Positions 1 through 9,246 of a stretch of 9,246 nt of DNA are shown here, in pieces. Within the stretch, counting starts at the first letter, position 1. Each line of letters starts with the position of its first letter. The stretch comes from Promethearchaeota archaeon. Lineage in GTDB: Archaea; Asgardarchaeota; Lokiarchaeia; Sigynarchaeales; SOKP01. Position numbers and translations under genes: made by a program. The stretch lies in contig JAEOUI010000143.1 in assembly GCA_016839425.1 (NCBI GenBank), forward strand, positions 1 through 9,246, written 5' to 3'. The notes beneath the pieces were generated by a model that was not told the DNA's origin, did not search any database, and saw nothing but the letters and a program-made list of their open reading frames with translations.

Positions 1-1206
1 CCTATTACAAGAAATTTAACATCCAATATTAAAGACAATGAATCCTTATCTGCTGCAAATAACTCTGAGATATGGATCCGTACTTTTGATTCTAAAACCA
101 AACAATCACTTATTGCTTTATCCAAAGACTCAAATAATAATTTTTATATCTCGTGCTATTTTAAAGATGATGGAGAATATTTGCCAGGGAATCATGTTTT
201 GAAATATAATAACTCAGGCGCGTTATGCGATGTAATTTTTCTCAATATTTCAGATATAGCTGTTGATACGAAAATAGATTTTTTAGACAATTTAATTGTT
301 TTAGAAAATTTTGCTTTATATAAATTTAATTCATCGGGATTTCAAATATGGAAAATATCAATTTATAACGAGAGTTCTAAATTAGCAATAGATTCCTCAA
401 ATAATATCTATGTTCTAGGCTTTTCTTCAATTTCTAAATACGATCCTTCGGGAAATCTTATTTGGATTAAACCTTTCTCAAAAATGGCCTACTTACAACG
501 AATTAAAATAGATTGCTTGGATAATATCGTTATCGCTAGAGTGTTTGAAAAAAATTGGAAGTACAATCTCTCAATAGAGAAATACGATCCAATGGGTGTA
601 AATCTTTGGAAAAAAGATTGTGAAGAAAGTTATCATTATCATTCTATAGCGCTCGCAATAGACTTTTTGGATAATATTTTAATCCTAAACGAAAATTACT
701 TGATTAAATTCGACATAAACGGAAGTGAAATATGGAACAAATTTGTACCTTATATTTCACCTGAACCGAGTATTTTAATTGATCAATTGAATGATATTTA
801 TATTCCCACACACTTTCCAGAGAGCGTTCCAATTATTGATTTTATATTTCAAATTGGATTTCTTTTAGGAACTTCTAGATCAGTACATCTCAATAAATAC
901 AACGAATCGGGCAGTTTGATATGGGAAAAAAGAATTACGGGATGTAAAAGTGCGATTTGTTTTGATATTATATTTGATTCTAATGAAAATTTTATCATGT
1001 GTGGACAATTAGAATTTTCAAGTGGAATTTATCAAGATTTCTTTCTTACAAAAAATCCGAAACAATTCTCAGGAAACTGCACAGAAAATAATTATTTTTC
1101 CCTAATCTTTATAATTCCCTTTCTATCAATTTCTATCGTTTTAATATTTAAAAAAATCCTAAGAAAAAGGCATGAGGTAAATGAAAACGAAAAAAATGAA
1201 AAATAA
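1..1206 (+). CDS. Membrane-anchored beta-propeller surface protein (5' partial)
   Basis: The frame is open from base 1 with no stop, so the true start lies upstream; 401 residues are visible. The TTG at 181 is an internal codon, because propeller-type sequence continues upstream of it. The protein is built from repeats of about 40-60 residues with two alternating signatures: D-x-x-[ND]-N-I-x-[VI]-L strands and K-[YF]-[ND]-x-x-G-x-x-[IL]-W. The second occurs at residues of about 68, 108, 146, 194, 236 and 299, which suggests a six- or seven-bladed propeller of the SBBP/NHL-like class. A hydrophobic segment at about 364-384 followed by KKILRKRH gives one C-terminal membrane anchor with a basic cytoplasmic tail. 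The signal peptide is presumably in the missing 5' part. It overlaps the next gene, a paralog, by 26 nt. The likely role is an extracellular binding or adhesion module; the ligand cannot be predicted. Confidence 0.82.
   Translation, partial: PITRNLTSNIKDNESLSAANNSEIWIRTFDSKTKQSLIALSKDSNNNFYISCYFKDDGEYLPGNHVLKYNNSGALCDVIFLNISDIAVDTKIDFLDNLIVLENFALYKFNSSGFQIWKISIYNESSKLAIDSSNNIYVLGFSSISKYDPSGNLIWIKPFSKMAYLQRIKIDCLDNIVIARVFEKNWKYNLSIEKYDPMGVNLWKKDCEESYHYHSIALAIDFLDNILILNENYLIKFDINGSEIWNKFVPYISPEPSILIDQLNDIYIPTHFPESVPIIDFIFQIGFLLGTSRSVHLNKYNESGSLIWEKRITGCKSAICFDIIFDSNENFIMCGQLEFSSGIYQDFFLTKNPKQFSGNCTENNYFSLIFIIPFLSISIVLIFKKILRKRHEVNENEKNEK
1165..1178 (+). promoter_or_regulatory. Candidate ribosome binding sites for the second propeller gene
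   Basis: AAAAGG at 1165-1170 lies 10 nt before ATG 1181. GAGGT at 1174-1178 lies only 2 nt before that ATG but 17 nt before ATG 1196. The first spacing is the more usual and supports 1181 as the start. Both sites lie inside the end of the preceding gene, which is consistent with coupled translation. Confidence 0.4.
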
Positions 1207-2470
1207 ATTTATGGATAAAAGAAATATTAAAGTAATAATATTTCTTTCTTGCGTATGTATTGAGATTTTTTATGGAATGCTCCCTTTTTTTAGTAATTCC
1301 AATAAGACACAAGAATTTAATCTAAAGCCTTCAAACCACGAGGATTCTTGGACGAAAGTCTTGGATGTTAATGGAAGGGCTATTTCAATATCGAATGATA
1401 CGCAAGAAAACATATATATTCTTTATTGTCTATGGGGTTCAGGGAATTATATCATAGAAAAATATAATACCTCGGGAGAATTGATATTTAAAAAAGAATT
1501 AAGATATGGAGCATGCGAAATTTGCGTGGACTTTTCAAATAATCTTCACATTTTAAGTAATTCCTTTCTCGTTAAATATAATAATTCAGGAATGAAAATA
1601 TGGAATAAAACGCTTGATTTCGAATCAGAAGGATTAGATATCTCTTTTGATTCGAAAAATAATATCTTGGTTTTGGGAAATTCTTTTATCGTCAAATTTG
1701 ACGAAAATGGAAATCATTTGTGGAATACTTCAATACTTGTGTCCTACTATGGAGATAACTTTAAGGGTAATGTCATCGCCCTCGATTCTTTGGATAATAT
1801 CGTCGTGTCAAAAGTATATGATTATGACAAATCAACCATTACAAAATACAATGTATCGGGCATGTTACAATGGACACATAATTTTTCTAAAGGTGCCATA
1901 AGCGATTTAGCATTGGATAAAAACGATAATATTTTCGTTGTTGCCAAGCAGATCGTAATCAAGTATGATAATGAATGCAATCAACTCTGGAATCGCACCA
2001 TTGTAGGGGGGGCTTCTAACACGTTCAATTACGAATCTACTTCCCTATGTACTGATTCTTCGGGAAATATAATTATTGCTACCAATGGAAGGATCGATAA
2101 TAGACATCCAGATATTTTATTTGGTAATTTATTTCAAGGACATACGACATATGGTTTTGGAGCTTATTTATATGGGTTTGATCGTTCAGGGGATTTATCC
2201 TTTTTCTGGCGGATCAATGGATGTTATTACTCATGGATTAACGACATGATTATTGACGCTAAAAATAATACCTATATTTTTGGTGGGAGAACAAATGGAA
2301 TTGTTTTATACAAAAATCCTGAACAATTTACTGGAAATTGTTTTCAATATAGTTATTTATCTATAATTGTTTTAAGTTCATTAGGAATAGTCTTGATTTT
2401 TGTAATTTTTTATGTATTTAAGAAACGAAAAATAAGATTGCTAAAAGAAGGGAAAAATTTGGAACATTAA
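1181..2470 (+). CDS. Membrane-anchored beta-propeller surface protein, paralog of the upstream gene
   Basis: This 429-residue protein has a basic n-region and hydrophobic core (about residues 11-37) that read as a signal peptide. Propeller repeats follow, with K-[YF]-[ND]-x-x-G-type motifs at about 94, 132, 172, 222 and 261 and a divergent GFDRSG at 332, alternating with D-x-x-N-N-I-x-V-L strands. The C-terminus has a transmembrane segment at about 392-413 and a KKRK stop-transfer. The end of the ectodomain (KNPEQFTGNC) matches the upstream gene's KNPKQFSGNC, so the two arose by tandem duplication. ATG 1181 is preferred because AAAAGG at 1165-1170 sits 10 nt upstream. ATGs at 1196 and 1211 are alternatives, and all three retain the signal peptide. 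The 26-nt overlap with the preceding gene implies co-transcription. The product is probably secreted and held in the membrane with its propeller outside; the ligand is unknown. Confidence 0.85.
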   Translation: MKTKKMKNKFMDKRNIKVIIFLSCVCIEIFYGMLPFFSNSNKTQEFNLKPSNHEDSWTKVLDVNGRAISISNDTQENIYILYCLWGSGNYIIEKYNTSGELIFKKELRYGACEICVDFSNNLHILSNSFLVKYNNSGMKIWNKTLDFESEGLDISFDSKNNILVLGNSFIVKFDENGNHLWNTSILVSYYGDNFKGNVIALDSLDNIVVSKVYDYDKSTITKYNVSGMLQWTHNFSKGAISDLALDKNDNIFVVAKQIVIKYDNECNQLWNRTIVGGASNTFNYESTSLCTDSSGNIIIATNGRIDNRHPDILFGNLFQGHTTYGFGAYLYGFDRSGDLSFFWRINGCYYSWINDMIIDAKNNTYIFGGRTNGIVLYKNPEQFTGNCFQYSYLSIIVLSSLGIVLIFVIFYVFKKRKIRLLKEGKNLEH

Positions 2471-2484
2471 AAGAAATACTGTTA

Positions 2485-3453
2485 TTAGAATTTTTTGGCA
2501 ATTTCGTTAAGAGTAGAATCTAATTTACCAATTGTAGTTTCCCAGCGATTTATGATTTCGTCAATCCTTGGAATCATAGTTTCTCGTTCTTTGTATTCGA
2601 GATATTCCTTAAATTCTTTTATGCTTTCGAGTTTTTCCGTGGTATCTGTTATGTATTTATGAATATCCTTCTTTTGAGTTTCGAAGACCTCGTGAACTCT
2701 TGATTGTTCGCCCTTTCTGACAAGAGTTTGGAGATACTCGTCGAGCCCTTGGAGTTGTGCAGTTAATTTATTTATCATGGTTTCCACGGTAGATTCGTAT
2801 GTTTCTACCACATTATCTTTAGGCAAGTTCATAGTAACATCCACGACGAACTTTTGCATCTGAACGAGCATCTCCTCGACGCTTTCAAAACCTTCAATTT
2901 TAAAATCGATTTCGGAATACGACGCTTGGATGCCCCTTTCCACATCGTCCAAACGATATATTTTAAATCCAGGATCGTTTTTGAGCTTAATGTCGGGATC
3001 GCCTTTCTTGTCAGCAGGTTCAATCTGACGCGTGAGACGCAATGGATTGAATACTAATGAAATGGCTAATGGATTGTTTGTTTGATAACTAAGAGTCGTT
3101 CGAATGTCTATATGACTCATCATGATCTTGAATCCTGGATGAGTATGCCACCATCCAACGGTAAACTCGGGAGGGTCCCTGCAGATCGCCTCGTCGTCAA
3201 TCATTGCCAAGCTTAAATAATCCTCGTCCGTCCATTTATATTGATCGATAACTGCGTCTTTATCTAACTCTTGGTGCATGATCGGATATGCTTCTGTTAC
3301 TATTACCTTACTCTTCTTTCCTTTCCCCTCGTTTCGACCAATAAAAATCCCACTGACTTCTAACCAATCGTCCCGAGGAATTTTAGCGCTAGCAAATCTC
3401 ACGGCGGCTGCAATGATTGTCTTATAGACCTTTTTTGGAATGATAACTGACAT
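2485..3453 (-). CDS. JAMM/MPN+ metalloprotease (deubiquitinase-like) with helical C-terminal extension
   Basis: This 322-residue protein has a complete JAMM zinc site: E32 (LEVSG), then H103-T-H105-P, S113 and D116, with ten residues between the second His and the Asp, as in active MPN+ isopeptidases. The MPN domain covers about 1-170 and ends in an FKIYRLDD strand that resembles the FRL strand of Rpn11. The segment S-H-I-D-I-R-T followed by SYQ resembles the corresponding stretch of BRCC36 (S-H-V-D-V-R-T) and AMSH (SYQ), as I recall those sequences. Residues of about 190-322 are charged and helical, probably a coiled coil, which in the family mediates partner binding. Known family members remove ubiquitin or ubiquitin-like proteins by zinc-dependent isopeptide cleavage; that activity is inferred here. 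No signal peptide is seen, so it is probably cytoplasmic. It stops 14 nt from the convergent propeller gene and has its own upstream region. Its other window paralogs are at 7226 and 8917. Confidence 0.93.
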   Translation of the reverse strand: MSVIIPKKVYKTIIAAAVRFASAKIPRDDWLEVSGIFIGRNEGKGKKSKVIVTEAYPIMHQELDKDAVIDQYKWTDEDYLSLAMIDDEAICRDPPEFTVGWWHTHPGFKIMMSHIDIRTTLSYQTNNPLAISLVFNPLRLTRQIEPADKKGDPDIKLKNDPGFKIYRLDDVERGIQASYSEIDFKIEGFESVEEMLVQMQKFVVDVTMNLPKDNVVETYESTVETMINKLTAQLQGLDEYLQTLVRKGEQSRVHEVFETQKKDIHKYITDTTEKLESIKEFKEYLEYKERETMIPRIDEIINRWETTIGKLDSTLNEIAKKF

Positions 3454-3671: not shown

Positions 3672-6041
3672 ATGAAAAATTTAAAAAAAAAACAGATAGT
3701 ATTTGGGATATTGATAGTTATTTTCTCACTATCAATTCTTCCAAATATAAGTGATAAGTTAAGAAATACATTAATACATGGTAATAGCGAGATTGAAATA
3801 AAAAGTGGCGACTTACCAGATATTATAGTAACCCCTGAGGCTAAATGGCATAATAATACAATGAATACGGGATATTATTCAGGATCATACGGTTTTGAAA
3901 ACGATCTACCAGGTACAATGGGTGCAGATATTGATTTTGTAGATAATTTTTATAGATCGACATCAATAACATACCTTTGGGCGCGTGTTGATACGGAAGT
4001 TTTAGGTCATAAAAAAGTACTATCATTGATTGATTCTCAAAGCTATAGTTATTTATATGTTGAACACGAAGGATTTAACGAAGTTTCAGGAACAATGGAA
4101 TGGTTCTGGTTATTGAATTCTGATAGTTCTGATGTTGGGTCATATTTCCGTCTAATGAACGATAACGATCTAGCATTTGAAATTAGATTGCGCAGTGGAT
4201 CTTTTGCATATACAGGATCTACTTCGGGTACTCTTTCGGCATTCGATAAAACTAAATGGTATCACAATCAATTATGGTTTAATTGTTCGGGACCGGGAAA
4301 CGGGCGATTTACATGGATCATAAACTATGAGAATGGAACTGAACTTGATCGAATTGAGAATGTGGAATTTATCAATAATCTAGATACTTTAAATAAAATA
4401 CACATTGAAAGTACAAGCACTTATCATGCTGCTGGTCATCGAGCTCATTTTGATGCATTTGGATTTAGCTGGGAAGGATATGAATTAGGCGATAACTTAA
4501 ATCCTGGATTATTGCTAAGTTTCCAAGAATTGACGGGAGCAGATTGGATTGGATATTCTTTAGATGGTGCAGAAAATGTTACTATAAGAGGAAATACAAC
4601 AATACCAATGCCTGAACCATCCATAAAACCACATACAATACAACTTTCGTGGCAAGATTTGGAAGATACTTTTCAATCAAAGGTCCGAGAATTCTATGTA
4701 TCTCCCAATCCAATTGGAGTTATTATCACTCCTGAAGAAAGGTTATACAACAAGCCAATGGAAGGATATTATCCTGGAACATTTGGATTTGAAAACGATG
4801 AAGATGGATTAATGCCTGAAGGATGGTATTATTGGGTTTCTTATAATCCTCTACCCATGATTGAATCTTCGATAGGCTCTCATAATAAAGTTGTCAGGTT
4901 GCAGGATCAAACCTCAGGAGGACAAACTAGCCTTCGACGAAGTTTTGATGAAAACCAATCTCAGGGAACCATAGAATTTTGGATATATACAACGGATACA
5001 ACGCAGAGAACAAGATTTTATAGTCAGAATGCTTCAGGAGATTTTTCTTTCCATATAAGACTTGAATCATCGACTTGGCATTATTATAATGGTTCAGATG
5101 CGATTGAAATTGTAGGCATGCCAACTCCGCAGGATAACGAGTGGATTCATGTGAGAATTGATTTTGAGTGTGATAAGGGAGGATATTTGGGATTAGGAGA
5201 GGATGAATTTTATCTTACGATTAATGGAACAAGATCAGAAAAAATTCCGTTTGAAGACGACTTAGAAGATATTAACATGTTTGGATTTTGCTCGGGTGTT
5301 ACCGCAACTAATTTTGATTTCTATGTAGACGCTGTTGGATTTTCTTGGGACCCTAACTACGAAATCGGAGATAATATGAAGGAGGGTTTGCTTCTCAGTT
5401 TTATAATATTAGATGATATTGATTGGATTAGGTATTCCTTAGATGAAAATTCATATATTTTAATTTCAGGAAATACGACAATTCCAATGCCCGACAATGG
5501 CGCACATTCAATCCAACTATTTTGGTCAAATCCAAATGGATTCTATTCTACTGACATTAGTTACTTTCAAGTCGATACTGAAATCGTGTATCTCGAAATT
5601 AACATTTTGGAACAAAATTATACTTCAGAAGAATTCCTGCTTGATATACAAATAAAAAACCAAGTTGGAGCCTACATTGATTTTGCGACAATTCAAGTCT
5701 GGTGGGACGGACTAGAACGAATTGATGCCGTAGAAAATAATGGTAATGGCATCTATACGATTTCGTTAAGCCCAATTACAGTAAATCCTGGAGATTCCCC
5801 CATTTTGCTTGAATTAATCGTAAACGCTGATGGATATCCTGAAAAAGATTTTAAAACGAATATTGCCGTGGATCCCATTCTAATCGATAAGGAACCCGAT
5901 CAATCCACCAATCAACCCACAGGAGATAATGGCTTGATAATATCAATTGTAATTGGTATAATTGCTATAGGTTCTGGAGCCGTTATTATAGTTACTGTCG
6001 GGTTTACACGGAAAAAGCTTTCGAAACACCCAAAAATTTAG
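3672..6041 (+). CDS. Large surface protein with duplicated LamG-like/Ig-like module and C-terminal membrane anchor
   Basis: This 789-residue protein starts with a basic n-region and hydrophobic core (residues 1-25), a signal peptide. Two homologous modules follow at about 48-343 and 348-635. Each opens with [IV]-I-x-T-P-E, then G-Y-Y-x-G-x-x-G-F-E-N-D, continues as a concanavalin/LamG-like beta domain ending in a G-F-S-W strand, and finishes with a short Ig-like unit carrying W-I-x-Y-S-L-D and G-N-T-T-I-P-M-P. A third beta domain (about 638-733) resembles an Ig-like fold. A Pro/Gln/Thr/Asn-rich spacer and a transmembrane segment at about 754-778 lead to a short basic tail, RKKLSKHPK. Many N-x-S/T sequons fit a glycosylated ectodomain. 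LamG-like folds usually bind glycans or proteins; binding is inferred, and no catalytic motif was seen. The gene is monocistronic by its flanks. The frame continues 23 codons beyond its TAG stop. Confidence 0.85.
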   Translation: MKNLKKKQIVFGILIVIFSLSILPNISDKLRNTLIHGNSEIEIKSGDLPDIIVTPEAKWHNNTMNTGYYSGSYGFENDLPGTMGADIDFVDNFYRSTSITYLWARVDTEVLGHKKVLSLIDSQSYSYLYVEHEGFNEVSGTMEWFWLLNSDSSDVGSYFRLMNDNDLAFEIRLRSGSFAYTGSTSGTLSAFDKTKWYHNQLWFNCSGPGNGRFTWIINYENGTELDRIENVEFINNLDTLNKIHIESTSTYHAAGHRAHFDAFGFSWEGYELGDNLNPGLLLSFQELTGADWIGYSLDGAENVTIRGNTTIPMPEPSIKPHTIQLSWQDLEDTFQSKVREFYVSPNPIGVIITPEERLYNKPMEGYYPGTFGFENDEDGLMPEGWYYWVSYNPLPMIESSIGSHNKVVRLQDQTSGGQTSLRRSFDENQSQGTIEFWIYTTDTTQRTRFYSQNASGDFSFHIRLESSTWHYYNGSDAIEIVGMPTPQDNEWIHVRIDFECDKGGYLGLGEDEFYLTINGTRSEKIPFEDDLEDINMFGFCSGVTATNFDFYVDAVGFSWDPNYEIGDNMKEGLLLSFIILDDIDWIRYSLDENSYILISGNTTIPMPDNGAHSIQLFWSNPNGFYSTDISYFQVDTEIVYLEINILEQNYTSEEFLLDIQIKNQVGAYIDFATIQVWWDGLERIDAVENNGNGIYTISLSPITVNPGDSPILLELIVNADGYPEKDFKTNIAVDPILIDKEPDQSTNQPTGDNGLIISIVIGIIAIGSGAVIIVTVGFTRKKLSKHPKI
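3813..5576 (+). repeat. Intragenic duplication: two copies of a LamG-like plus Ig-like module
   Basis: Copy 1 spans about 3813-4700 and copy 2 about 4713-5576. They align at protein level through the opening T-P-E box, the G-F-E-N-D box, the strand ending G-F-S-W, E-[LI]-G-D-N-[LM], the L-L-L-S-F strand, W-I-x-Y-S-L-D and G-N-T-T-I-P-M-P. The copies are diverged throughout, so this is an old duplication and not an assembly artefact. Confidence 0.8.
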
Positions 6042-6401: not shown

Positions 6402-7073
6402 ATGGCCGAAAAAGGGTTTGAACCACTAACAAGCCACTTAGGAATAGCTGGAACTTCGTATCGAATCCAGCTAGGTTTGATTAACGAGAAATGGGCTTCC
6501 CGAATATTAAAAGGACGAGATATTATTGATTCCTATGTCTTTAAAGAAGAGGATACGGCCGGAGGGCTTCCAAATTCCAACCTCATTGTAGGTTGGGTCC
6601 TGAGAACTGTTGCAATACCAAACATTAATCCCCATCAAATCATGAAAACAACTCAAGCGTTAGTTAAACAAGCTGTACAAAAGAAAGAAGAGAAAAAAAT
6701 GGTACCTGCTGTTTCGGATTCAAGAGATGTTGAATTGGAAAAAGTTCCCGAAAACGAGCTTAAAAGACCTACTACGAAAGGATGGGTAAGAGAAGAAGGG
6801 GCTACAGGATATCAAGAGGGGGAAGAAGCAAAGAGAAAAGCGTTTCAAGAGAGAGTCAGAGCAATTAAAGAAGATAACGCGCCTCAGGTATCGGGATCGA
6901 CCATCAAGACAACGAGAACCCTACCATCAATTCCTTCAAGCACGACTACTACCACAACTATAAATGCTCAAAATAGTAGAGCAACAGGAAAAACAACCTT
7001 TTGTCCCTCGTGCGGTAAGGATATCGATTGGAAATTCTGCCCATATTGTGGAAAACCATTACCTCACGAGTGA
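6402..7073 (+). CDS. Uncharacterised protein with C-terminal four-cysteine zinc ribbon
   Basis: I do not recognise this 223-residue protein as a whole. Residues of about 15-95 look like a compact alpha/beta domain: strands around SYRIQLGLI and NLIVGWVLRTVAI, then a helix rich in Lys and Gln. Residues of about 95-195 are charged and low in complexity, including six consecutive Thr at 181-186, so probably a disordered linker. The C-terminus is a zinc ribbon with C201, C204, C213 and C216 (CPSCG and CPYCG), the common zinc-ribbon_2 type. It lacks the extra Cys/His residues of a RING, so there is no basis to call it an E3 ligase. No membrane segment is seen. It has its own promoter and ribosome site and lies 152 nt upstream of the MPN+ gene at 7226, same strand. 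Binding of protein or nucleic acid by the ribbon is possible but not shown. Confidence 0.85.
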   Translation: MAEKGFEPLTSHLGIAGTSYRIQLGLINEKWASRILKGRDIIDSYVFKEEDTAGGLPNSNLIVGWVLRTVAIPNINPHQIMKTTQALVKQAVQKKEEKKMVPAVSDSRDVELEKVPENELKRPTTKGWVREEGATGYQEGEEAKRKAFQERVRAIKEDNAPQVSGSTIKTTRTLPSIPSSTTTTTTINAQNSRATGKTTFCPSCGKDIDWKFCPYCGKPLPHE

Positions 7074-7225: not shown

Positions 7226-8914
7226 ATGAAAGACAAATCGATCGTGATAATAAAACCTGAAGCATACTATAAAATGCTCGTTCATGTCCTCCGGTTTGGT
7301 TCAAAAACCAGGGATAAAAGCCAATATAAAGAAGTCATGGGAATGCTCATGGGATATCTTGAGGGCGAAGGAGATATTAAGAATGTGATTATAGAAGATG
7401 CCGTACCAGTTTCTCACGGTGGTTCTATTGAAGTCCAATTTGCACCTCATGATTACATAACTTTTGCGGCAATAGACGAAAAATTCTCTGAAAAAAATTG
7501 GTTCACTGTAGGATGGTATCATTCTCATCCAAACCTAAAAGTTTTTTTTAGTGGAACGGATATAAAAAACCAAATGGGCTGGCAAACGCCTAACCCAAGC
7601 GCTATTGGCGTCGTATTTGATCACTATTATCTAGAAACCGACCCTGAATTTAGAAAGAAATATGGTTTAAAACCATTGAGCGAGGGCGAGATTGATTATG
7701 GGTTTAGAACCTTCAGATTAGACGACCCCTCCAAACCTAATACGAACTATCACGAAGTTAAAACCATCGTCGAACCTCCCGATAATAATAATTATTACTT
7801 AAAAATAATGGAGCTCATCGAAAGCATTCACACGAGAGATCCGCCAATTCTTGAATTAAACGAAACTCCAGACATATTTGGAAATGTGTATATTCCCCAC
7901 GTAAATCAACTTATGGCAGATCGGCCTGAATTTGAAACAAGTTCCATTCTCACTGCATTTAAAGACGGTGTTTATAGCCTTTTAGAAACATCGTTAGAAC
8001 CCTTGATATCTTTTTTTAATAAGTTTAGCCAAGAAACCGTTTTAAATATCGTAGAAAGTAATTTAAAAACACGAGAAACGCTCGTTTCGCTCAAGGAAGT
8101 CTTAAGCAACAAGATGTCTTCAGTTCAAACTAATTTTAAATTTTCTTTAACTAACCTTTTAGATCAATTAGATGTGTACTTTTACGATCGGTTTGAAGGA
8201 TTCGATAGAGATAGAGAAACGATAAAGAATTCTTTAGATACACTGAAGGAAGTAATTTCGGAGAAGATAAATCAAATATTTAAAATGATAATTGAAACTT
8301 CAAGTTCTTCAATCGTTGCCTCCTTGGAGCAGAATATTACAAAAATTCAACAATCAAACGAAAAAAACAAGTCTTCGCAAGTATCTATTGAAAAATCAAA
8401 GGAACAATTATTAAATATTACTGATTTCTTTGATTCGCAATTAAAACTAATCTCTGAAAATATGAACTCAATTCAAGTACAATCAATAGATGATATTAAA
8501 CAAAAAATAGAGTTATTAACAAAAACTCTGGGTTCTCAAAAGACTCTTATTAATGATATTTTGCAAACTCAAGATACGATTTCAAGAGAAATAAAGGAGA
8601 AGTACAAACAATTAAAAAATCAGGACTCTACTGAGCAGAAAATTCTTGAACCAATAAAATCTGATACTCTTTCAGAATTTGATTCACAGGAATTAACAAA
8701 TAAATTTAAAGATCTTGAAGAAAAGAACAGGGAATTACAAGAATCATTAAATAAGGAAAAAGAATACCACGAGAAAACTAAAAACGAATTAAACAACATT
8801 ATTCTTGAAAAACAGGATCTCATAAACCAAATCGAAATTCAAAAGTCTGAGAAAAACGAAACAATGTCTCACATTTCTACCAAAAAAGAAAAAAAAAAGA
8901 AAAAAAATAAATAA
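7226..8914 (+). CDS. Rpn11/CSN5-like JAMM/MPN+ isopeptidase with very long coiled-coil tail
   Basis: This 562-residue protein has an N-terminal MPN domain (about 1-170) with the full JAMM zinc site: E36 (KEVMG), H99-S-H101-P, S109 and D112. The flanking GWYHSHP and S-G-x-D-[IV] match eukaryotic Rpn11 and CSN5 closely, and FRTFRLDD at 160-167 fits the late strand of the fold. Such enzymes cleave ubiquitin or ubiquitin-like conjugates; that activity is inferred. Residues of about 185-480 are mostly helical, residues of about 480-550 are a strong coiled coil rich in Glu, Lys and Leu, and the end is a Lys-rich tail (KKEKKKKKNK). Rpn11 and CSN5 are about 310-335 residues, so the tail is far longer than usual. 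There is no signal peptide or membrane segment, so it is cytoplasmic. The MPN- gene begins 2 nt after its stop, implying one operon and probable physical partnership. Confidence 0.93.
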   Translation: MKDKSIVIIKPEAYYKMLVHVLRFGSKTRDKSQYKEVMGMLMGYLEGEGDIKNVIIEDAVPVSHGGSIEVQFAPHDYITFAAIDEKFSEKNWFTVGWYHSHPNLKVFFSGTDIKNQMGWQTPNPSAIGVVFDHYYLETDPEFRKKYGLKPLSEGEIDYGFRTFRLDDPSKPNTNYHEVKTIVEPPDNNNYYLKIMELIESIHTRDPPILELNETPDIFGNVYIPHVNQLMADRPEFETSSILTAFKDGVYSLLETSLEPLISFFNKFSQETVLNIVESNLKTRETLVSLKEVLSNKMSSVQTNFKFSLTNLLDQLDVYFYDRFEGFDRDRETIKNSLDTLKEVISEKINQIFKMIIETSSSSIVASLEQNITKIQQSNEKNKSSQVSIEKSKEQLLNITDFFDSQLKLISENMNSIQVQSIDDIKQKIELLTKTLGSQKTLINDILQTQDTISREIKEKYKQLKNQDSTEQKILEPIKSDTLSEFDSQELTNKFKDLEEKNRELQESLNKEKEYHEKTKNELNNIILEKQDLINQIEIQKSEKNETMSHISTKKEKKKKKNK

Positions 8915-8916
8915 TC

Positions 8917-9246
8917 ATGTCAACAAAAATTCAAATAGGAATTAAAAAGGAAGCGTTCAGGAACATGATGACGCATGTCCTTAAATACGCGAGTCGCTCT
9001 CTCAAGCAAAATATTGAAGTAATTGGGATTTGTATGGGAAGAAAAGACGCACGCTTGGAAATAATAAATGCCATTCCATTAACTCATGGAATTGAAATCG
9101 ATCTTGAAAACCAACAAGAAGTTCTTGAAATATTTGCAACTACTGAAGAACAATATCAAAAAAGGAACTTAACTGTAGTTGGGTGGTATTGTTCAAATCC
9201 AAACGCAGGTTTGGAATATTCCGATAAACAGGTAAAAAATCACTTA
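8917..9246 (+). CDS. MPN- (JAMM-dead) pseudoenzyme, paralog of the preceding MPN+ gene (3' partial)
   Basis: The ATG at 8917 is 2 nt after the previous stop, and the frame stays open for 110 codons to the window end. The protein aligns with the N-terminus of the 7226 product: a first helix with H-V-L-[RK]-[FY]-[GA]-S, then E34-V-I-G at the position of the catalytic Glu, a shared [VI]-P-[VL]-[ST]-H-G strand, then V-G-W-Y. There the zinc ligands are replaced: GWYCSNPN stands where the paralog has GWYHSHPN, so both His become C92 and N94, and the ligand Asp becomes Q105, while S102 remains. It therefore cannot form the standard JAMM zinc site. In eukaryotes such MPN- subunits (Rpn8, CSN6, eIF3f/h, Abraxas) pair with an MPN+ partner as scaffold. 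No Shine-Dalgarno site is seen, so translation is probably coupled. The C-terminal half, which would hold any partner-binding helices, is not visible. Confidence 0.88.
   Translation, partial: MSTKIQIGIKKEAFRNMMTHVLKYASRSLKQNIEVIGICMGRKDARLEIINAIPLTHGIEIDLENQQEVLEIFATTEEQYQKRNLTVVGWYCSNPNAGLEYSDKQVKNHL

Follow-up and report, generated by a model that had tools for sequence, protein, structure and literature searches.

Tandem MPN genes of Lokiarchaea, one with a conserved JAMM site and one in which the site has been lost repeatedly

Could the association of an active with an inactive MPN subunit, found in each of the proteasome lid, the COP9 signalosome and BRISC/BRCA1-A (PMC4140821, PMC5199339; all papers are cited here from excerpts of their text), have arisen in an archaeon, and would such a pair represent the ancestral state of the eukaryotic complexes or an independent invention of it? 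The question is raised by two adjacent genes, here called A and B, at the end of a 9,246-nucleotide (nt) stretch of a Promethearchaeota archaeon (assembly GCA_016839425.1, contig JAEOUI010000143.1), the whole of which is hereafter the window. According to the excerpt of a 2018 study, archaea are not known to have the Rpn11-Rpn8 (lid-type) organisation (PMC6043591); our literature search, whose coverage mostly excluded subscription journals and bioRxiv, returned no recognised description of such an archaeal pair, and the excerpts of PMC5654768, PMC11354881 and PMC10936438 do not mention it. The answer that we consider probable is that A and B form an independently arisen Lokiarchaeal MPN+/MPN- pair, in which A would be an active JAMM isopeptidase and B a fixed partner whose active site decayed recurrently. 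The features on which the argument turns are the following.

7226..8914, + strand: gene A, 562 amino acids (aa), with an N-terminal MPN+/JAMM domain and a long predicted C-terminal helix (PF01398, 5.9e-14)
8917..9246, + strand: gene B, an MPN- paralog of which the first 110 aa are present (PF01398, Pfam JAB, 4.6e-11; site ECNSQ)
8944..8988, + strand: alpha1 helix of B, KKEAFRNMMTHVLKY, a proposed dimer surface and, in altered B, the block with the highest conservation
9190..9231, + strand: degenerate JAMM site of B (Cys92, Asn94, Ser102, Gln105)

The product of A carries all the residues of the JAMM/MPN+ type, namely the Glu, the HxH(P) motif, the Ser and the Asp (E36, H99, H101, S109, D112). 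The corresponding positions of B are E34, C92, N94, S102 and Q105: Cys, Asn and Gln replace the two His and the Asp, and B combines an MPN fold with the absence of the JAMM ligands, as an MPN- pseudoenzyme does. B begins 2 nt past the stop codon of A in the open reading frames (ORFs) of the window, and the two proteins are 33% identical over 117 columns (BLASTP E 2e-18 and 4e-19, one per direction). An earlier note, made from the letters of this DNA, had recognised the intact site of A, the 2-nt spacing, the paralogy across the site and the three replaced ligands, all of which hold; the Glu and the Ser that B retains were absent from it. The closest homolog of A among the matches listed, P0002, is labelled Lokiarchaeota and is 92% identical in the MPN region. 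The end of the window truncates B at residue 110, before its tail, the listed B orthologs being 416-471 aa long; the features given below for the B tail are those of orthologs. In the nearest relative (locus L001, from the metagenome-assembled genome Zod_Metabat.1389), B is 83% identical over 110 columns, is full-length (438 aa) and has the site ECNAH.

A scan of genomes yielded 44 loci, each of which bears the label Lokiarchaeota or Lokiarchaeia, and a search of 195 genomes from the phylum added 7 complete pairs, six from a sister clade and one at L082. B stands behind A in 43 of the 44 scanned loci, the remaining one (L043) being cut, and the order A-B is kept in 50/50 loci that have both genes on the contig, with a gap of -26 to +17 nt when B is taken to begin at its earliest possible start codon, except in L019, where A is split by a frame break. 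The earlier note had taken a lack of conserved adjacency as evidence against an active/inactive MPN pair in an archaeon; the adjacency is conserved, and such a pair is supported. Left out of this count are L043, whose A is cut and whose contig recurs as L117, and L081, L086, L087, L089, L115 and L116, in which one gene is cut or missing; L045-L074, L088, L090 and L094 were removed as repeats of earlier contigs, recognised by the length of the contig and the genes matched, and L083-L085 and L091-L093 are other MPN genes, not A. The B profile matches at E 1e-40 in 45 of the 195 genomes, two of which (G160 and G185) carry, in the stretches retrieved, a single, more distant MPN gene. On contigs that run on past A, no clear A lacking B was found; a lone short gene at L114:2143-3018 is the single case in doubt.

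The active site of A is uniform. It reads EHHSD in 120/120 listed homologs, in 42 of the 44 loci (one is masked at the Glu, whose codon reads X in L040, and one is cut) and is intact in 7/7 added loci. Among the 120 listed homologs of B, 52 are intact, 67 altered and one gapped at the site (P0228, counted as not intact); the lists comprise the best 120 of 362 matches for A and the best 120 of 143 for B, and that of A is the closer-knit. The 53 B genes taken from the loci divide into 17 with an intact site (including L036, despite a Leu for the Pro of HxHP), 12 that lack the Glu and keep the metal ligands, one of which lost the Ser too, and 24 that miss at least one ligand. The other MPN genes of five sampled genomes keep HxHP..SxxD, a motif that does not include the Glu, in 19/19 cases. 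Intact members (L082, L011, L023) are among the deepest branches of B, which indicates that B lost its site repeatedly. Indeed, the active/dead label requires 5-7 changes by unordered parsimony, and 11-12 if loss is irreversible, on three quick trees without bootstrap (concatenated and B-only, with the catalytic columns blanked, and A-only), the Glu-deficient sister clade counting as one or two losses according to the rooting. Homologs of B that keep the site would, according to the earlier note, have pointed to a local mutation or a sequencing error; nearly half of those listed do keep it and, together with the tree, they speak for repeated inactivation and not for a local error.

Two lineages deserve separate mention. 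In the sister clade (L075-L081, L086, L087, L089), B has Gln for the catalytic Glu in 9/9 readable cases, with the metal His and Asp kept, and one of these nine is also without the Ser; in the seven loci with a whole A, this protein has three additional residues between HSHP and S..D. The B gene of L022 (11471-12817), seemingly a mosaic and kept in the counts, has a dead-site region like that of the Ile/Arg clade (L032, L035, L037) and otherwise resembles mostly its own clade (L007, L009), which would fit the transfer of an inactivated stretch of the site from one lineage to another.

The common origin of the two genes was examined in a tree of 84 MPN domains, which includes four outside rows (yeast Rpn11, human CSN5, yeast Rpn8 as the single Rpn8 row, and CsRpn11, the archaeal protein of Caldiarchaeum subterraneum) and has neither a BRCC36 nor an Abraxas row. 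A and B each form a clade (100/96 and 100/99, the first figure being the bootstrap) and are sisters of each other (96/86), within an Asgard set of families A, B, C, G, H and X (98/86) that excludes Rpn11, CSN5, CsRpn11, Rpn8 and the Asgard families E and F. The homology extends to the C-terminal halves of A and B (hhalign 99.4%, 1e-21; 97.6% and 3.6e-12 for the part that precedes the coil), the value for A against C in this region being 0.2%. Judged from their sequences, A and B are thus sister clades that arose by tandem duplication of the whole gene.

What has been maintained in B once its site is altered? The ratio of nonsynonymous to synonymous substitution rates (dN/dS) of B is 0.17-0.32 in 7/7 pairs in which both members are altered, all from loci other than the window, and 0.13-0.37 in five intact pairs, some pairs sharing a member; B is under purifying selection with or without an intact site. 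In altered B, conservation over blocks of 15 positions is 0.89 for alpha1, a helix assigned from the prediction on the ortholog L004, 0.80 for the C-terminal helix of the MPN domain and 0.68-0.69 for the site region, and the mean for alpha1 is 0.89 in the 68 altered or gapped and 0.92 in the 52 intact B proteins of the list. In CSN6 and Rpn8, the alpha1/alpha2 surface is a dimer contact, proposed or seen (PMC4140821), and it is by analogy with these proteins that alpha1 of B is proposed as an interface.

Furthermore, A and B co-vary. Their distances correlate at 0.915 over 27 loci, and the partial Mantel correlation remains 0.85 given two upstream neighbours, gene C and a zinc-ribbon gene, the A-C value being -0.04; for the tails only, it is 0.72 when the MPN domains are also taken into account. 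Of the 44 loci, 32 have C upstream on the opposite strand; the zinc-ribbon gene precedes A, in the same orientation, in 39 of the 45 loci compared, one of which is the window. In the window, these neighbours are:

2485..3453, - strand: gene C, which brings the MPN genes of the cluster to three; its site is intact and its C-terminus shorter
6402..7073, + strand: conserved gene ahead of A for a small protein whose C-terminal part is a zinc ribbon

The reading that we prefer infers, beyond these observations, that A heterodimerises with B, that B activates A and that the substrate is ubiquitin or a ubiquitin-like protein; the selection on B, the conservation of alpha1 and the co-variation are consistent with joint action of A and B. 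In eukaryotes, BRCC36 and CSN5 are activated by their MPN- partners (PMC5199339, PMC4140821). Several points weigh against the preferred reading. The prediction of the complex proposed by the earlier note, run twice with AlphaFold on natural in-frame A-B tandems (L004 and L011), reached a predicted template-modelling score (pTM) of 0.48 each time and gave no confident A-B arrangement; the helices predicted at 239-483 (A) and 738-911 (B) in the L004 tandem and at 236-447 (A) and 713-934 (B) in that of L011 would form a coiled coil. The alignments to 4o8x_B and 5cw4_A spanned both domains in a first structural comparison, a hint that the domains pack against each other, and not in a second, and no natural A-B fusion was found among proteins of about 528-1680 aa (the single candidate, P0122, was rejected as A-like by eye). 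CsRpn11 forms dimers in crystals and is monomeric in solution (PMC6043591). Smaller partial correlations also exceed chance (0.34 for A and the zinc-ribbon gene, 0.29 for B and C) and, since linked genes share genealogies, the co-variation of A and B is support and not proof. The score of the tails partly reflects helix composition, as a reversed-B control still obtains 86.6% and 4.5e-6. With 52 of the 120 listed B proteins intact, asymmetry is not obligatory for the pair, nor is the family always a simple pair: L011:3-1100 contains two further short degenerate MPN ORFs, devoid of a helical tail, immediately upstream of A, and the lone gene of L114, from the same genome, encodes 291 aa with an intact HSHP..S..D, reaches similar scores with the profile of A (260 bits) and that of B (244 bits), and enters no count. 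No ubiquitin-system gene is present among the ten neighbours tested at L009. Finally, the approximately unbiased (AU) test, applied to a short domain, rejects neither the grouping of B with Rpn8 (p 0.255) nor that of A with Rpn11 and CSN5 (p 0.087).

The lack of a confident A-B arrangement and the monomeric state of CsRpn11 in solution (PMC6043591), to which can be added a well-conserved segment that B possesses on its own past the MPN domain (LQEIP), would also suit a B that is a mere neighbour of A, a pseudoenzyme with its own role, for instance as a homodimer or in the binding of a peptide or modifier. We regard this as doubtful in view of the strict adjacency in 50/50 loci, of the strong co-variation, tails included, and of the absence of a clear A without B where the contig continues, the short gene at L114:2143-3018 being the doubtful case.

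It is improbable that the altered site of B has acquired another metal or another chemistry instead of losing catalysis. The Glu is retained in 60 of the 63 listed B proteins that lack a ligand, and Cys and Asn are common to the window and L001; however, the substitutions vary by clade, the first His being replaced by Ser, Ile, Leu, Asn, Thr, Tyr, Gln, Ala, Val or Cys and the Asp by Ala, Glu, Gly, Ser, Thr, Ile, His, Gln or Asn. Since these replacements are lineage-specific and many are unlikely metal binders, they do not describe a shared new site.

Orthology of the pair with Rpn11-Rpn8, or CSN5-CSN6, whose ancestral state it would then display, appears very improbable, even though the AU test leaves room for it. 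In the tree, which is of the kind called for by the earlier note and was built with Rpn11, Rpn8 and CSN5, A and B are each other's sisters and the eukaryotic rows fall outside the Asgard clade. The deepest branches of B include intact sites, and the B profile favours Rpn11/CSN5 (about 1e-12) over Rpn8 (5e-7); Abraxas/KIAA0157 and CSN6 are absent among the best 60 of its 63 matches. Moreover, a separate Rpn11/CSN5-like MPN gene is present in 5/5 genomes sampled. This family E (~270 aa) adjoins an E2 gene in L095, the sole neighbourhood tested for it, and family F (~165 aa) adjoins a ThiF/E1-like gene in L096, so that E, and not A, is most likely the Rpn11 counterpart in these genomes. Six Lokiarchaeal genomes (G001-G006; L095-L113) have 4-7 MPN matches apiece. 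It is unlikely that the pair is the ancestor of that of the proteasome lid, and of the two origins envisaged in the earlier note, ancestral state or independent invention, the second is favoured. That the window's B, known from one contig and cut at its end, reflects a fault of sequencing or assembly, or a pseudogene in decay, is hardly credible and was rejected, as the separate genome of L001 also has an altered B, of full length, which excludes a sequencing slip, and as the altered pairs of other loci have the low dN/dS given above.

How does the independently arisen pair compare with known systems? By its layout, we read it as closest to BRCC36/Abraxas, in which the MPN+ and MPN- subunits are likewise each trailed by a long helical tail, the tails of A and B being predicted helices. 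Unlike BRCC36-Abraxas/Abro1 of BRCA1-A and BRISC, A and B are lineage-specific tandem duplicates, and B is still intact in many of its listed members. Rpn8 and CSN6 are generally MPN-; B is not generally so. Rpn11-Rpn8 and CSN5-CSN6 differ further in that A and B have long helical tails, that the best tree shows no sister relation to A-B (the AU test does not reject one) and that no PCI-domain gene was detected with Pfam among the ten neighbours of A-B at L009, to which this result applies. The likeness lies in the MPN+/MPN- pairing and in the conserved alpha1 region (PMC4140821). A shares with CsRpn11 and with the Asgard gene E the character of an archaeal JAMM protein of the Rpn11 kind; CsRpn11 is its best PDB sequence match (1.8e-10) and groups, weakly, with E and not with A (94/63). 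As to EMC8/EMC9 (UPF0172), B scores higher with JAB (43.0 bits) and most listed A-type proteins are also labelled UPF0172, which denotes a cross-match and not a placement in that family.

Among the neighbours, C was overlooked by the earlier note. All five of its site residues (with Ser or Thr) are present in the window and, in the alignment, in each of the 28 loci whose C ORF is whole. Four of the 32 C genes (L015, L022, L032, L038), which lie roughly 1 kb upstream of A on the minus strand, carry just past HSHPGF an insert of ~30 nt that breaks the ORF and contains a small stem-loop (CTGG..CCAG; CTTGG..CCAAG in L022). The insert resembles a very short archaeal intron within a protein-coding gene; these four loci are scattered on the A+B tree, and the RNA folding z-scores of the insert are weak (-0.46 to -1.42). 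The C proteins of L027, L033, L036, L077, L081 and L115 have S-x3-D, not S-x2-D (HSHPGF..MLSGFGD). In the zinc-ribbon protein (~217 aa), a linker joins a well-conserved N-terminal part, which matches nothing in Pfam, to the CPxCG ribbon at the C-terminus; this protein may be a third component of the A-B unit. Between C and this gene, the window encodes a surface-type protein of 789 aa (3672-6041, +), for which a concanavalin-like (LamG) match was obtained and which is missing at that place in L001, L002, L004 and L009; at L009, an AAA+/VWA protein, an ATP-grasp protein and a Roadblock protein lie beyond C. The overlapping paralogous ORFs 1-1206 and 1181-2470 (+), with weak PQQ_2/SBBP matches, are probably secreted propeller-like repeat proteins with a C-terminal membrane segment, as judged by eye. 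A phage origin of A was rejected, no tblastn match being found at E 1e-3 in 50,697 phage records.

The model we propose for the Lokiarchaeal pair starts with the tandem duplication, in the Lokiarchaeal line, of a whole gene composed of an MPN domain and a long helical tail. A would be a JAMM isopeptidase of the deubiquitinase type, with which B would pair through the MPN domains (alpha1 and C-terminal helix) and the helical tails, thereby supporting, positioning or regulating it. One active site would be enough for the complex and that of B would have been free to decay, as it did many times and by varied substitutions, the fold, alpha1 and the tail staying under selection.

We incline to the view that two active JAMM enzymes became an active enzyme and a pseudoenzyme on some ten independent occasions, and that living species represent every stage of this change: both sites active, loss of the Glu only, and loss of the ligands. 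If so, the pairing of an active with an inactive subunit would be an evolutionary attractor of MPN dimers and not an eukaryotic accident. Archaeal pairs in which B is active, half-lost or lost would permit the worth of a second site and of a second subunit to be measured, and the series would allow the steps that lead from a pair of enzymes to an enzyme and its pseudoenzyme to be rebuilt.
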